Below, piece after piece: positions 4,920-57,472 of a stretch of DNA of 64,000 nucleotides. The DNA lies in NCBI RefSeq assembly GCF_019334805.1, contig NZ_CP079822.1:1860001-1924000 (forward strand), given 5' to 3'. Both the position numbers and the translations under genes were made by a program. Each line of letters opens with the position of its first letter. Positions within the stretch are counted from its first letter, which is position 1. A model generated the notes under the pieces. It did not search any database, was not told the origin of the DNA, and saw only the letters and a program-made list of their open reading frames with translations. The DNA is from Rothia mucilaginosa. Its GTDB lineage: Bacteria > Actinomycetota > Actinomycetes > Actinomycetales > Micrococcaceae.

Positions 4920-5183
4920 AATCTCCTACTTTCTGTTCACGGGCTGCGGGGGAGCACTACGCTCCTCGTGAGCCGTGCCCGTATAACTAATTATGTGGCA
5001 GATTTCTGGGTGCATGCTGTGAAAATGATGCACGCCTGATTTCTGCAACCTAAACTTTTGGTAAATTACCTCAGGTGTTTTCCGACTGGGGAAGAAAGCG
5101 GTGAGGTAAGCTATGCACCCCGCCGGTCAGACTGTAGAAAAACCTACAGAAACCGACCGGCAGGATTTGTAGCGTGGAGGCGG

Positions 5184-7238
5184 TTAGAAGCTGCCGCCGT
5201 CACCGCCGCCGCTACCCCAATCGCCGCCACCGCCGCTGAAGCCGCCGCCCCAGCTACCGCCGCTACTACCGCCACTGCTACCCCAGCTACTGGTGCCGGA
5301 GTTAATAGCGGTCATCAGAGCGCCCAGCAGCAGGCCCTTCGCCAGGTCTCCACCGAAGCCGCTACCGCCGCGGTCGTTCTGGTTGTTGTAGTAGTTGCCG
5401 ACCTCGCTCTGAGCGCGGTTCTGCGCATCGGTCGCCTTCTGGATCGCCATGTTGGCTTCCTTCATAGCGTTCAGCGGATCCGAAGGGGCCAGGCGCTGAG
5501 CCTGACCCAGGTGACGCTCCGCCTCAGAAACAGCCGTCAGCGTCATCGGACCCACCGCAGCACGGCGGTTATTGATGTAGCTACGCGCACCGTTCACCGC
5601 AGCGTAGGCAGAACGCATCGTACGATCCAGGTTCTGCGAAGCCGCACGAGAACGCTCGCGGGTAGCACGCATATTGGTCATTGCCTTATCCAGCTCGGCG
5701 GAAAGCTGACGCAGCTGGTTCGCCAGAGTCAGCGGGTCATTCGGACGAGCCGAAGCGCTCTGATTGACCTGGTTGAGCACCGCCTCCATACCGGCAGCGA
5801 CCGCACCCAAATCATCGCGACGCTGAGACGCCGCGAGGCTCTTAGCCTCCGCCACGTCACGCTGAATGCTCAGCAGGTCGGTGCTCAGACCCAGCTGAGC
5901 CTGCTCCAGCTCCTGCGCGCGGGTATTGACCGCAGCGCCCAGCGCCTGAATTTGCGAGGCGGCTTCCTCCGCGGTGCGCAGGTGAGCAACCGCCTCCGAA
6001 CGTGCCGTAGCAATGGTCGCCTGAGCCTTCTCAACCTCAGCAGCGCACAGCACCATGTTCGACTCCAACAGGGCAGGAGTCTTCGAAATGGGCTCCAGTG
6101 CGCTGGGCAGGTAACGTTCCCTCATCGCGTGGTACTGGGCGGTAATCTCTTCCACCGAAGCACGCAGCTGCGGCAGACGCTGAGCCAGAGCCTCAATAGC
6201 TTGGGGTGCCTCCTGCTCCAAGTTGCGCAACTGAGCCAGCTTAGCGTCCTGTTCCTGAGCGATACGGGTAACTTCCTGAGAGTTATCAATAATCTCAGTC
6301 AACCAGGCACGCTGCTCGGCCTCAGTGTCGGGAATGCTATCGGTCAGAAGCTGCTGACGCTGGAAGGACTTACGCATCAGATCCTCAGCGCGTGCAATCT
6401 CCTGAGCAAACTCGGCGACCTGCTGGTCGCTGTACTGTGCACGCGCAAAATCCAGTTCCTGCTTCGCATGGCTCATCGTCGTATCAGCCTGCAACAGGGC
6501 GCTACCGGCGCGAGTGCGCAGCTCCTCCAGCGGAACCTCCGGGATGGGGGAGTAGTTACGAGGCGCACCGTAGGAACGCTGAGGCTGCTGCTGAGCGTTC
6601 TTCTTCTTGCGGCGACGGTACATCGCGTAACCACCAGCACCAACAGCTGCCGCCGCACCCACACCGAGCACACCGGTCACCACACCAGAAGAGCTACCGC
6701 CCTTCTGGGCCTCAATACCCTCAACCGCAGCAAGAGCTGCACCCGCATAGTCGCTGTTCTGCAGCTTCGGCTTAATGTAGTTCTGGTACACCTTCGTCTG
6801 CTGATCGCTCGAAAGAGTCTTGGTGCTACCTGCCAAGAAATACGCCTGGCGGGACTCGGTCGCAATTACCAGCACCACATCGGCAGAACCCCAATTGTTC
6901 TTCGTGGCAAGCGCCTTCGTCCAGCTCGAAGAAGTAGACGGGTTCTCGAACTTATCAATGGTCACCACGTGCAAATCCACGTTGTACTTCTTCGACAGAT
7001 TCGAAATCTTAGATTTCAGGGTAGCGGTATCACCCAAAGAGTTCGTGGAATCGTACACGGTGGTGCCCGTAATCTGCATCGGGTCAGCAGCCTGCGCTGA
7101 GGTGCTCAAAAATGCAGAACCAGCCGGCAGAACCACCGGGGCACAAGAAAGACCTGCCGCCAGCACTGTGGCACCCAGAATAGTGCGCAGGCGAGGGCGT
7201 GCGGGACGAATCTGACGCGCAAAGGCGTGCTCGGTCAT
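5184..7238 (-). CDS. TPM-domain (YgcG-like) membrane protein with Gly/Ser-rich tail
   Basis: The 684-residue product has an N-terminal signal peptide ending near STSAQA, then a TPM domain (about 50-175) recognisable by the DVVLVIATESRQAYFLAG region. A transmembrane helix (about 185-205, VVTGVLGVGAAAAVGAGGYA) is followed by basic RRRKKK. The next 400 residues are helical and coiled-coil-like with many Gln/Ala/Glu. The end is a Gly/Ser/Trp-rich tail (GGGFSGGGGDWGSGGG). TPM-domain proteins are tied to membrane-protein assembly or repair. Here the domain would lie outside and the coiled coil inside, next to PspA, the next gene downstream. The start ATG has a strong GGAGGAAAGACC site. A direct interaction with PspA is an inference. 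Confidence 0.82.
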   Translation of the reverse strand: MTEHAFARQIRPARPRLRTILGATVLAAGLSCAPVVLPAGSAFLSTSAQAADPMQITGTTVYDSTNSLGDTATLKSKISNLSKKYNVDLHVVTIDKFENPSTSSSWTKALATKNNWGSADVVLVIATESRQAYFLAGSTKTLSSDQQTKVYQNYIKPKLQNSDYAGAALAAVEGIEAQKGGSSSGVVTGVLGVGAAAAVGAGGYAMYRRRKKKNAQQQPQRSYGAPRNYSPIPEVPLEELRTRAGSALLQADTTMSHAKQELDFARAQYSDQQVAEFAQEIARAEDLMRKSFQRQQLLTDSIPDTEAEQRAWLTEIIDNSQEVTRIAQEQDAKLAQLRNLEQEAPQAIEALAQRLPQLRASVEEITAQYHAMRERYLPSALEPISKTPALLESNMVLCAAEVEKAQATIATARSEAVAHLRTAEEAASQIQALGAAVNTRAQELEQAQLGLSTDLLSIQRDVAEAKSLAASQRRDDLGAVAAGMEAVLNQVNQSASARPNDPLTLANQLRQLSAELDKAMTNMRATRERSRAASQNLDRTMRSAYAAVNGARSYINNRRAAVGPMTLTAVSEAERHLGQAQRLAPSDPLNAMKEANMAIQKATDAQNRAQSEVGNYYNNQNDRGGSGFGGDLAKGLLLGALMTAINSGTSSWGSSGGSSGGSWGGGFSGGGGDWGSGGGDGGSF

Positions 7239-53963: not shown

Positions 53964-54089
53964 GGCTGAGGCAACGGCGGGGACCTATCTAGCCGATGAC
54001 TGTAGCTAGGGGCGGGGCGCGGTTCCTCGCGTATAATGGTTGAAAATTCGTGGCGTACCGCGAACACCATTCATTCTTTGAGGAGACAC

Positions 54090-54554
54090 ATGTCTGAGAA
54101 CCCGAACTACCAGCAGAACCCGGGCGAGTTCATTCCCGCCCCGCAGCAGGCACCCGCATACAACATGCAGGGTGGTTATCCCGGCTACCAGCCGACCCCG
54201 AGCTCGGCTCTGGCGATTGCTTCGCTGATTCTGGGTATTATTGGTCTGCTCTCTGGCTGGCTGATTTTCGGTGGCGCGCTGGGTCTGGTCGGCGTGATTC
54301 TGGGTATTGTTGCCCTGGTGAAGGTAAAGAACGGCACTGCCTCCGGTAAGGGCATGGCGATTGGTGGTATTGTCACCGGTGCGCTGGGCATGATTGTTGC
54401 TGTTGTTGTGCTGGTTCTGGGCTTGATTGGCATTGGCATGCTCAGCGAGTGCGCTGAGAATGCGGTGCAGGATTCGAGCGGTAACTATGTGTGCACCGTT
54501 CATGGTGAAACCATGACGATGAGCCCTAAGGAATATGAAGCTGTCCGCCGCTAA
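54090..54554 (+). CDS. DUF4190-type small membrane protein
   Basis: A 154-residue protein with a Pro/Gln/Asn-rich cytoplasmic N-terminus (1-40), two helices forming the DUF4190 pattern (about 42-70 SALAIASLILGIIGLLSGWL and 89-118 GMAIGGIVTGALGMIVAVVV) and a short extracytoplasmic tail with two Cys. GAGGAGACAC precedes the ATG. It is a shorter paralogue of the gene at 54794. Function unknown. Confidence 0.82.
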   Translation: MSENPNYQQNPGEFIPAPQQAPAYNMQGGYPGYQPTPSSALAIASLILGIIGLLSGWLIFGGALGLVGVILGIVALVKVKNGTASGKGMAIGGIVTGALGMIVAVVVLVLGLIGIGMLSECAENAVQDSSGNYVCTVHGETMTMSPKEYEAVRR

Positions 54555-54793: not shown

Positions 54794-55669
54794 ATGTCTG
54801 AGAATAACTACGGAAATAACCAGGGGAACGCACAGAACCCCTACGCTGCTCAGCAGCCTAATTCTTCCGCCCAGAGCTCGTACGGTCAGGATTACGGCCA
54901 GGCTCCTGCAACGCAGAACACTTACGGCCAGGATTACGGTCAGAACGCATCCGCTCAGAACAGCTACGGCCAGACTCAGCAGAACACTGCTGCGCAGAAC
55001 GCGCCCCAGCAGAACCAGTACGGTCAGTTCGGTGCGCAGTCTTCTTCTCAGAATGCTTATGGCCAGAACGCCGCTCAGGGTGCTGCAGCGCAGAACACCT
55101 ACGGTCAGGCGCAGCCCGCGCAGCAGCAGTACGGCTATGGTCAGGATGCTTCCTACCAGGCTCAGACCGCGCAGCAGAACCAGTACGGTTACGGTCAGGA
55201 CGCCTCCTACCAGGCGCAGCCCGCTGATTACAACTACCAGCAGAACTCTTACCAGCAGCCTCAGCAGGATGCTTACGGTTACGGCCAGCCCGCGGGTTAC
55301 CCGTATGCGGCTCCCGTGACGAAGAAGGCTCCCGGCATGGCGCTGGCGGCGATGATTCTCGGTATTGCGGCTGTGCTGACCGGCTTCCTCGTGTTTGGTA
55401 TTCTGCTGGGTATTGCCGCAATCATTCTGGGCGCGCTGTCCCTGAAGAAGACTAAGGAAATTGGCGCGGGTAAGGCATTCGCGCTGACCGGTATTATCAC
55501 CGGTGCGGTGTCCGTCCTGATTTCGATTTCCATGCTTTTCGTATACATTTCTTTCTTCCAGACTACTGAGAAGTGCCTTGAGGTTGGTACCGATGACGGT
55601 CACGGTAACGTGGTCTGCCAGATTGGTGACAACCCGAACAACCGCATGACTGTTCCTGCGCGCCACTAA
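54794..55669 (+). CDS. DUF4190-type membrane protein with Tyr-Gly-Gln-rich N-terminus
   Basis: A 291-residue protein. Residues 1-170 are low complexity: Asn, Gln, Tyr, Gly and Ala with more than ten copies of YGQ/YGYGQ motifs (for example YGQDYGQAPATQNTYGQDYG). Two helices follow (about 181-205 and 219-248) with the DUF4190 pattern, then an external tail with two Cys. The N-terminus should be cytoplasmic and resembles prion-like phase-separating segments. It is a longer paralogue of the gene at 54090. GTGAAGGAAAGAACG precedes the ATG. Function unknown. Confidence 0.82.
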   Translation: MSENNYGNNQGNAQNPYAAQQPNSSAQSSYGQDYGQAPATQNTYGQDYGQNASAQNSYGQTQQNTAAQNAPQQNQYGQFGAQSSSQNAYGQNAAQGAAAQNTYGQAQPAQQQYGYGQDASYQAQTAQQNQYGYGQDASYQAQPADYNYQQNSYQQPQQDAYGYGQPAGYPYAAPVTKKAPGMALAAMILGIAAVLTGFLVFGILLGIAAIILGALSLKKTKEIGAGKAFALTGIITGAVSVLISISMLFVYISFFQTTEKCLEVGTDDGHGNVVCQIGDNPNNRMTVPARH

Positions 55670-55953: not shown

Positions 55954-56323
55954 GGGGATGATCGGTTTCGACGATGTGAGTTGAGATGGGTGAAGCGTGC
56001 CGAGGATGCAGGGTTATCTCGTTAACGCCCTCTGCAAAAAATTAAGTGCAGAATCTAAGCGCACTGACTTCGCACTCGCTGCCTAAGCGCGAGTTGCCGT
56101 CTGTCGGCCTGAGCATGCCTTTGGCTCAGTTACCGGCATCGACTTAAAAGGCCACTGCTGCTAGCCCTTGTTGCGGGGGCTGGCGGGACTTTTACGTGAC
56201 TAGGTTCGTCGGTATATGTGTTTATGCAAGTACCGGAGCCGAAAAGTAGCGTTCGCATAAACTGCGCACGGAGAAGCCCCGTTGACGCCACATCGGACCG
56301 GGGTTCGATTCCCCGCATCTCCA
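55954..56323 (+). ncRNA. ssrA: tmRNA (ssrA)
   Basis: The 5' end GGGGATG pairs with the 3' acceptor strand CATCTCC (56316-56322), and GGGGATGATCGGTTTCGAC is the standard opening. The T arm GGGGTTCGATTCCCC lies at the 3' end; CCA is not encoded. The tag frame runs from GCA at 56048 to TAA at 56084-56086 and encodes AESKRTDFALAA, ending in the ALAA that proteases recognise. The RNA rescues stalled ribosomes with SmpB, encoded 2 kb upstream. The first copy of the 78-bp repeat, with a strong hairpin, supplies the terminator. Confidence 0.97.
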
Positions 56324-56385
56324 CGATCTCCCAACCGTCCGCTACCCCGTAGGGGGGGTGCGGCGGTGATTATCGGTTCCAATCC

Positions 56386-56463
56386 AGAGGAAGAACCGCG
56401 GTAGGTTTCTACCACCCGGCAGGACGCCCCACGGCGTCACCTGCCGGGTATTTTTATGCCCAA
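56386..56463 (+). repeat. 78-bp direct repeat, copy 1
   Basis: Runs from AGAGGAAGAACCGCGG to TATTTTTATGCCCAA and includes an intrinsic terminator. Identical to copy 2 at 57115-57192 except for one base in the hairpin loop (GCCCC here, GCCTC in copy 2). Confidence 0.95.
56414..56455 (+). terminator. tmRNA terminator
   Basis: ACCCGGCAGG pairs with CCTGCCGGGT, with an inner ACGCC/GGCGT pairing, then ATTTTT. It lies 91 bases after the mature tmRNA 3' end. Confidence 0.8.
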
Positions 56464-56651
56464 ATTAGGCCCGCTCCGGGGCTTACCAGCGTGGTGGCCA
56501 CCATCATGGGCCTCGACCGCGCGATTAGATGCGGCAGCGGACCCGCCACTGAGAGCCTGCATGACAGAAGAGGTATATTTTCTTGTAATGTCAATTTACG
56601 TGTTACATCTGATGAGACTCTCTGATAGACTACTGAGTAGTGATGTAAGAT

Positions 56652-56668
56652 ACGTCACTATGTGACGT
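56652..56668. promoter_or_regulatory. 17-bp palindrome upstream of the peptide frame
   Basis: ACGTCAC-TAT-GTGACGT is a perfect inverted repeat in an AT-rich stretch. A second pair, TTACATC (about 56603-56609) with GATGTAA (about 56642-56648), lies just upstream. Both are placed like operators or a leader hairpin for the peptide and membrane-protein genes. Confidence 0.4.
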
Positions 56669-56713
56669 GAGAATGCATTCAGCATAAAGCTTATTCACAA
56701 CCGCAATTTCTGC

Positions 56714-56862
56714 TTGGAATTGGGGGGGGGCTAGCTGCTTCCACGATTGCAAGAGCTTTAGGGCCAGCATTTGTTGGTGGTTTTGGAAAAGCCCTTGGAG
56801 GTCCGGCAGTAATTGCCGCTGCGCTAGCTGTTGCAGCAGTGTCCTGCACTCTCACTCTTTAA
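56714..56862 (+). pseudogene. Bacteriocin-like Gly/Ala-rich peptide, frame interrupted at a G tract
   Basis: The frame that ends in TAA at 56860-56862 encodes, after GIGGG, a hydrophobic run LAASTIARALGPAFVGGFGK followed by ALGGPAVIAAALAVAAVSCT and a last LTL. It has GxxxG-type spacing and no acidic residue. No ATG, GTG or TTG lies in this frame between the upstream stop (56668-56670) and the G tract (nine G, 56722-56730). With ten or seven G the frame would join TTG at 56714. So the gene is either decayed, phase-variable or affected by a homopolymer reading error. The composition resembles small secreted bacteriocins; no family is assigned. Confidence 0.4.
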
Positions 56863-56877
56863 CCTGGGAGAGGTCCA

Positions 56878-57093
56878 ATGCGTACGAAGAATATATTTAC
56901 ACTAGGATTTTTTCTCACTATTGTTCCGGTGTTCTGGGTGATTATCTCATTTGCCAGAGACGGGGAGTTCTTTAATCCAGTATCAATTCTAAGTGCAATT
57001 TTAGGAGGTCTTTTGGTCACTTTTGCAGCCAGAAGGACGCTTGAGAGTGATTCAAAGTTCCCTAAGGGACCCCCTAAAGGACCTAGTGTGTAA
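56878..57093 (+). CDS. Small two-helix membrane protein, immunity-like
   Basis: A 71-residue basic protein with two hydrophobic helices (about 7-26, FTLGFFLTIVPVFWVIISFA, and 34-51, VSILSAILGGLLVTFAAR) and a Pro/Gly/Lys tail (KFPKGPPKGPSV). GGGAGAGGTCCA is an excellent ribosome site, and the gene starts 15 bases after the bacteriocin-like frame stop, so the two would be co-transcribed. Size and layout match immunity proteins of small bacteriocins, but no sequence family is recognised. The AT-rich codon use (ATA, TTA, AGA) differs from all nearby chromosomal genes and suggests transfer. Confidence 0.7.
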   Translation: MRTKNIFTLGFFLTIVPVFWVIISFARDGEFFNPVSILSAILGGLLVTFAARRTLESDSKFPKGPPKGPSV

Positions 57094-57114
57094 AACATCG
57101 CTTAGAAGTTTCTA

Positions 57115-57192
57115 AGAGGAAGAACCGCGGTAGGTTTCTACCACCCGGCAGGACGCCTCACGGCGTCACCTGCCGGGTATTTTTATGCCCAA
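57115..57192 (+). repeat. 78-bp direct repeat, copy 2 with terminator
   Basis: A copy of 56386-56463 with one base changed. Its hairpin (57143-57184) would end transcription of the membrane-protein gene 22 bases upstream. Confidence 0.95.
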
Positions 57193-57472
57193 GTTTCGGT
57201 CTGTATTGTCGGTCCGTTCCGGGGAGTGCCGGTGTGCCCGAGGGTGCTCAGGTGACCGCATCGTAATGAGAACGTCATCAGAGAAGACGAAAACGCACCC
57301 TATGGCGTAGTATCGAAGGGTAGATATCGTTGTTCGGTGTTGATTGTTCATTCAATCGCACCGGCAACGTTCGAGAGCAACCGTAGAGCCGCCAAAATAG
57401 CAGGTCATAGGGACGCCGCCACTACGATGCGGTGGCTACGCAGCCGCTATGACGACCACTCAAGGACACACC

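Follow-up and report, generated by a model that had tools for sequence, protein, structure and literature searches.

A probable orphan immunity gene of a phage-borne EntV-like bacteriocin pair downstream of ssrA in Rothia mucilaginosa

Downstream of the tmRNA gene (ssrA) of Rothia mucilaginosa, two near-identical repeats enclose a small insert in which a peptide frame is followed by an intact gene for a 71-aa membrane protein. The question raised by this locus was what the two frames are, where they came from, and what the intact one would be for. The locus was analysed within a window of 64,000 nucleotides, the whole stretch of DNA under study. Judged from sequence comparisons, the 71-aa gene is probably an orphan immunity gene, left from a bacteriocin pair that a phage had carried. 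The features of the locus were as follows.

55954..56324, + strand: neighbouring tmRNA gene (ssrA) and probable integration site (ARAGORN; Rfam RF00023, E 5.5e-67)
56386..56466, strand not given: left direct-repeat copy with terminator-like hairpin (repeat and hairpin calls)
56467..56580, + strand: remnant of the C-terminal tail of a phage terminase large subunit, TerL (tblastn, HMM)
56581..56712, + strand: upstream region of the former cargo genes (alignment with Rothia sp. RSM386)
56713..56862, + strand: pseudogene, C-terminal part of an EntV-like two-cysteine bacteriocin precursor (profile A5, 19 related proteins)
56878..57093, + strand: intact 71-aa two-helix membrane protein, candidate immunity protein (relatives, profile A6, predicted model, dN/dS)
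57115..57195, strand not given: right direct-repeat copy (repeat and hairpin calls)

A sequence-only reading of this DNA had described a 78-bp, one-mismatch duplication around 651 bp of lower-GC DNA, and the counts bore it out. Positions 56386-56463 and 57115-57192 differed at 1 of 78 bases, extension to 56466 and 57195 brought the mismatches to 2 of 81, and the interval between the copies (56464-57114, downstream of ssrA) measured 651 bp, with 47.6% GC versus 59.4% for the window. A near-identical 78-bp pair at this spacing was taken as beyond chance. The insert's first 107 bp, which include the TerL tail, were 65% GC and the remainder 44%, and the insert occurred only once in its own genome. 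The terminator that had been placed within the duplicated segment was seen as a terminator-like hairpin in both copies (stem starts at 56432 and 57161), and the palindrome reported inside the insert was found by eye at 56652-56668, its 7-base arms lying below the 12-base threshold of the repeat scan. In the Rfam search tmRNA alone was above the cut-off. No integrase was present in the insert, as had been claimed, with no ORF exceeding 71 aa (+ strand) or 79 aa (- strand). The nearest named loci came from Rothia sp. RSM386 (L010) and R. mucilaginosa 141_RMUC (L011). Positions 56491-56686 matched Rothia sp. RSM386 at 86% over 197 bp. As to a promoter and terminator of its own, by which phage cargo may be recognized, terminator-like repeats flanked the gene pair, and a promoter scan of 56581-56712, upstream of the pair, gave no match.

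Insertion at ssrA had also been proposed. In Rothia sp. RSM386 (L009, genome G020) the repeat was about 165 bp long and took in the final 16 bases of the tmRNA gene, which integration at the tmRNA 3' end would lead one to expect; the window copy stopped short of that end. Because the L009 duplication enters the tmRNA gene, ssrA was likely the insertion site of the element. The empty site expected from the proposal (a flank without the 71-aa gene) was not found among 35 genomes of the genus: the ssrA flank was present in 4 of the 35, all 4 with the 71-aa gene, and the other 31 aligned only up to the tmRNA end (a 33-bp stray in G018 excepted), which makes them uninformative on an empty site. From the immunity gene candidate into the right repeat, R. 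mucilaginosa 141_RMUC was 96.6% identical to the window over 293 bp, and since both genomes share this stretch, they probably hold one inherited junction. In 141_RMUC the repeat was present a third time, along with a further cassette; before that third copy (L011 8281-9412), this cassette contained ORFs of 125 and 105 aa.

The flanks of the gene pair pointed to a phage. The window TerL tail was detected by tblastn, in which residues 496-533 of the L014 TerL showed 60.5% identity over 38 residues (E 5e-10), and by HMM (E 9e-6), and PHROGs called the longer tail in relatives terminase large subunit. The TerL and portal profiles were seeded by L014 proteins; PHROGs named both of these, and also the L177 TerL. 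Chromosomal TerL tails were found in the window, G020, G566, G563, G116, and G487, and portal pieces in G009, G020, and G563. The L009 insert started with a TerL tail and ended with the head of the portal gene, while no portal piece remained in the window. In G566, G563, G116, and G487 the tails stood without the rest of TerL, amid genes that looked non-phage by eye.

The whole arrangement was present twice in one 80-kb IMG/VR record. The first copy (L177) read TerL, precursor, membrane protein, portal, its TerL being cut by the locus end (HMM 120-555 of 556), and the second (L061) read TerL, other cargo, a second TerL tail, precursor, membrane protein, portal. A chromosomal piece of G487 was 92.6% identical to the L061 unit over 1467 bases. 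These divergent phage copies surfaced only via the portal fragment, with the best 80 of 259 IMG/VR loci used; IMG/VR scans that used the 71-aa protein or peptide of the Rothia type were negative. Among the best 80 of the 259, both slot ends were present in 74 loci, of which 27 had a TerL-portal gap above 300 bp and five (L012, L013, L042, L047, and L061; two pairs look alike) had an additional partial TerL tail lying after the cargo and before the portal. Location amid phage structural genes, a mark of phage cargo (morons), was thus represented by the TerL tail in the window and by both sides in L009, L177, and L061. The pair in the window came from a cargo slot between TerL and portal, which goes beyond the sequence-only reading. 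Among the open PMC papers found by literature searches, no title or abstract start described a bacteriocin pair between terL and portal.

The left ends of the TerL tails clustered at L014 residues 436-496 of 535 (window, G020, G566, G116, G487, and G563; the L009 start is ragged), which fits either a discrete unit or repeated deletion up to a selected cargo. It is possible, if doubtful, that TerL tail, precursor, immunity gene, and portal head together make up a mobile unit, which would use the phage genes as homology arms, shuttle cargo between phages and the chromosomes of several actinobacterial genera, and stack in arrays, after which cells would drop the toxin and keep the shield.

Several other observations were made on the slot. 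The second TerL tails are what a single crossover of a piece made of TerL tail and cargo would leave. In L061 a cargo-upstream stretch preceded three units of the slot (1540-1679, 5182-5320, and 6763-6844, about 90% alike), with a strong hairpin ahead of the third cargo unit. Other cargo of the same slot included what we take to be a reverse-strand TfoX-like gene (L014 7567-7887) and, presumably, an ABC-type transporter set (L012 4393-7172). In G009 (L008 3870-5080), and likewise in 141_RMUC, the stretch before the 71-aa gene was replaced by other gene pieces and a gene that we assume to be Nudix-like. A second TerL tail, inverted, lay about 1.5 kb from the first in G563 (L136 9379-9573).

The frame preceding the 71-aa gene was placed through its relatives, of which the protein database held 19, some longer and one from Arcanobacterium hippocoleae. 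A search of 396 genomes of the order with profile A3, which was built from six of the 19, brought up G280 and G298, in both of which a small membrane protein came directly 3' to this peptide part; seven of its ten genomes (G167, G174, G200, G257, G311, G368, and G408), with E values of 9.6e-4 to 0.009 within longer frames, were dropped as chance and are not among the 20 loci compared below. A longer profile, A4, gave matches in 9 of the 213 genomes searched from one family and in 6 of the 396 from the order, and it recovered G436, G450, G442, G538, G537, and G487, none of which had gone into building it (G487 only at E 9e-4). Another Rothia (G044) had a precursor with an in-frame TGA and a membrane protein behind it. 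Intact precursors, 184-215 aa long, began with a signal-like N-terminus (by eye), followed by a prodomain and a C-terminal part that had a cysteine near each end. Signal, prodomain, and two-cysteine peptide stood in one frame in G436, G442, G450, G537, G487, and the two phage copies (signals by eye). A third protein search had a length window that shut out full-length precursors and supports no claim on intact metagenomic ones.

Comparison of sequences related this precursor family to EntV. The NCBIfam model EntV_fam (NF058576) matched L177 (E 1.2e-15), L061 (2.4e-8), G487 (1.7e-7), G537 (2.9e-6), and a fragment in G116 (3.3e-4); none reached its curated cut-off of 130 bits, the best score being 57.9 bits (L177). 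Because the matches of L177, L061, G487, and G537 were full length and significant but below the cut-off, these precursors were regarded as a distant branch and not as equivalogs. Seven of the ten precursors tested (G436, G450, G442, G044, G538, G298, and G566) had no EntV_fam match and were tied to the matching group by profile A4. The best PDB match of profile A5 was EntV (7roa, E 0.0093), with both cysteines aligned. In single-sequence PDB searches L061 reached EntV only at E 0.092, and G537 found no relative; the match of L061 to profile A5 was aided by its near copy G487 within A5. The L177 precursor matched PHROG 21353, a phage family of unknown function, over its full length (E 4.8e-37), which suggests that PHROG 21353 is an EntV-like bacteriocin. 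A precursor model of low confidence (pLDDT 71) had three N-terminal and four or five C-terminal helices with a weak linker between, and EntV was not listed in fold searches with it (Foldseek and a second look). For the window peptide frame and for the 71-aa protein, Pfam and NCBIfam gave nothing above the cut-off. An SfLAP match (E 0.013) and other sub-threshold matches were taken as chance. Behind the pair in G537, a further 462-codon open frame began like the precursor (L135 8470-9855; A5 E 2e-11).

The 71-aa protein is a real gene. The description of it as a basic two-helix protein starting 15 bases after the peptide frame held: it had two hydrophobic stretches, 8 K+R versus 4 D+E, and predicted helices at residues 3-26 and 34-59 (mean pLDDT 81.8), and in a fold search the model had no significant counterpart. 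Among the 5.8 billion proteins of a database, 69 relatives were found, 61 of them at least 66 aa long and 8 shorter than 66 aa; P0001, P0006, and P0064 had insertions or a changed end. The gene was found in 4 of 59 genomes, that is, in 4 of 35 of the genus and 0 of 24 others. Pfam, NCBIfam, and PHROGs contained no known immunity family for it. PHROGs searches with the 71-aa protein, P0015, P0080, and P0088 gave weak matches only, and the 71-aa protein and P0088 were not found in phage or plasmid records.

We then considered the partner of the precursor across loci. All 5 loci with an intact precursor, as well as both intact phage copies, had a small membrane protein 3' to it (taken from a provisional start codon in G436 and G450), and in the window the 71-aa gene likewise adjoins a bacteriocin gene, here as a precursor remnant. 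The same order, intact in other genera and in the phage record, together with the precursors that match EntV, upheld the earlier view that the locus is of the bacteriocin-plus-immunity kind. Partners in other genera were 8-33% identical to the 71-aa protein, G566 and G563 excepted, and at this low identity it is by their position, size, and helices that most partners are linked to it. Exclusion proteins and holins include small membrane proteins of such a type. The 71-aa protein might accordingly belong to phage conversion of another sort (superinfection exclusion or holin-like), its pairing with the precursor being secondary, and in L009 and G563 it does have a TerL fragment on one side and a portal fragment on the other; the G537 partner had a weak Pfam holin match (E 0.087). 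We consider this improbable: the partner stood directly 3' to the precursor in G436, G442, G450, and G537, where TerL and portal matches were absent, and the frames of precursor and partner overlapped in G487 and L061.

Which of the two genes survives was examined in 20 bacterial loci, which partly share ancestry and therefore do not represent 20 independent events. Both genes were intact in five (G436, G442, G450, G487, and G537). The membrane protein was intact and the precursor broken or absent in 11 (the window as G000, G009, G020, G048, G044, G280, G298, G116, G538, G563, and G566), whereas an intact precursor without the membrane protein occurred in 0 of 20. Neither was intact in the remaining four (G424, G281, G321, and G418), of which G281, G321, and G418 had the prodomain only and no membrane-protein profile match within 16 kb. 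Among the 16 loci that came from precursor queries, the membrane protein stood alone in 7 versus 0 for the precursor. G298, where the precursor has its front displaced by what we take to be insertion-sequence-like DNA from upstream, was counted as broken; without this locus the counts were 10 versus 0 overall and 6 versus 0 among precursor-found loci.

Profile A6 of the membrane proteins includes the window's own 71-aa protein, whose orthologs in G566 and G563 belong to another family. When the four Rothia genomes were compared with these two, dN/dS was 0.14-0.19 at dS 0.68-0.85, and 0.16-0.19 for the window's own protein, which shows constraint on the 71-aa protein across families. Within the Rothia group there were 0-2 synonymous and 0-4 nonsynonymous changes, with ratios of 0.6-1.2, too few to show selection. 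A prophage scrap in neutral decay, with no present function, would explain why little is left of the phage and of the precursor, why the Rothia copies differ by few changes, why the promoter scan had no match, and why some 71-aa relatives are broken too. It would not predict that, of the 17 loci having the membrane gene, 16 keep it intact and 12 have the precursor broken or absent, nor the cross-family dN/dS, and we regard it as unlikely, somewhat more so than phage conversion.

The peptide frame of the window is such a broken precursor. It was open from 56671 to a stop at 56860-56862, 15 bases before the ATG of the 71-aa gene, and contained no ATG and no TTG, its sole GTG lying seven codons before the stop. 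The match to profile A5 (E 3e-14) covered only positions 156-197 of 199. The frame keeps the second cysteine but has lost the signal peptide, the prodomain, and the stretch around the first conserved cysteine, and it offers no usable start; signal, prodomain, and two-cysteine peptide do not stand in one frame here. Since only the C-terminal part is kept, it was filed as a pseudogene. The status of a remnant, one of two offered by the sequence-only reading, was supported, and the other, a minimal working unit, was not. It is very unlikely that the cell makes and exports the short Gly/Ala-rich peptide as such, since the closeness of the two genes and the shortened frames of the same C-terminal part in the protein database are outweighed by the missing start and signal, by intact relatives that are 184-215 aa precursors, by L009, in which most of the precursor region is deleted, and by G009 and G048, in which a profile search left no precursor match.

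We return to the orphan immunity gene as the preferred reading. A temperate actinobacterial phage would have carried a two-gene cargo between terL and portal, consisting of a Sec-exported EntV-like bacteriocin precursor and then a small two-helix membrane protein protecting the carrier. A piece of this phage region would have landed behind ssrA in the R. mucilaginosa group, between copies of the ssrA 3' flank, and its phage genes would have been trimmed to the TerL tail (plus the portal head in relatives). The precursor would then have lost its front and frame and the immunity gene remained intact. We infer that the 71-aa protein is expressed, confers immunity, and, from within the membrane, blocks EntV-like peptides from neighbouring actinobacteria. 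A broken toxin gene beside an intact antidote suggests that the cell keeps the antidote as a shield against toxin-making neighbours; the retained gene could also be a bystander.

Known systems resemble the pair in part. EntV (enterocin O16, enterococcin V583) of Enterococcus faecalis (NF058576, PDB 7ROA), as far as the consulted descriptions go, has the same signal, prodomain, and C-terminal peptide of about 68 aa with a cysteine near each end. Corynicin JK (ypkK) of Corynebacterium jeikeium, an actinobacterial bacteriocin like the precursors here, is said in a title (Swe et al., 2007) to be in one family with enterococcin V583. In the available parts of two EntV papers, a 170-aa precursor is exported by Sec and cut to 68 aa, with a disulfide C106-C167 (PMC6606811, PMC9562342), and seven helices, three plus four, are described (PMC9562342), versus three plus four or five in our low-confidence model. 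Unlike EntV, the actinobacterial precursors were below the cut-off, most chromosomal ones tested having no model match, and unlike EntV as described, the precursor is paired with a small membrane protein, phage-carried, and, in the window, broken. The word 'immunity' occurs 0 times in the available text of PMC6606811 and once in that of PMC9562342. According to the accessible part of PMC8308785, streptococci make the class III bacteriocins dysgalacticin and streptococcin A-M57; the former carries a Sec-type leader and has next to it a membrane-associated immunity factor, DysI, and incomplete sil loci keep immunity without toxin. Dysgalacticin/DysI and streptococcin A-M57 are plasmid-borne, unlike the phage-slot pair. 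The orphan immunity genes of sil loci show the same retention, here reached through a phage cargo slot.

If this reading holds, a likely immunity protein for EntV-like bacteriocins can be named, and it would stand for many sequences, one cluster of the 71-aa type alone having 266 members. The EntV family would extend into several actinobacterial genera and phages (PHROG 21353), and the terL-to-portal slot would emerge as a vehicle for bacteriocin-immunity pairs. That the toxin alone is lost would offer a testable case of a shield outliving its weapon, probably in the human mouth, the habitat given for R. mucilaginosa in the consulted part of PMC7190385.

Two further observations concern the surroundings and the breaks. 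Upstream of ssrA, the window had two adjacent DUF4190-type membrane proteins with low-complexity N-termini (54036-54554 and 54794-55669), the second just under the Pfam cut-off. The breaks of the precursors clustered at or just behind an AWNW motif: a nine-G run at 56722-56730 in the window frame, an in-frame TGA with the remainder still in frame in G044 (L143 7860-7862) and G538 (L132 7841-7843), and two database proteins (P0095 and P0096) ending at AWN. Such breaks may reflect either recurrent inactivation or recoding.
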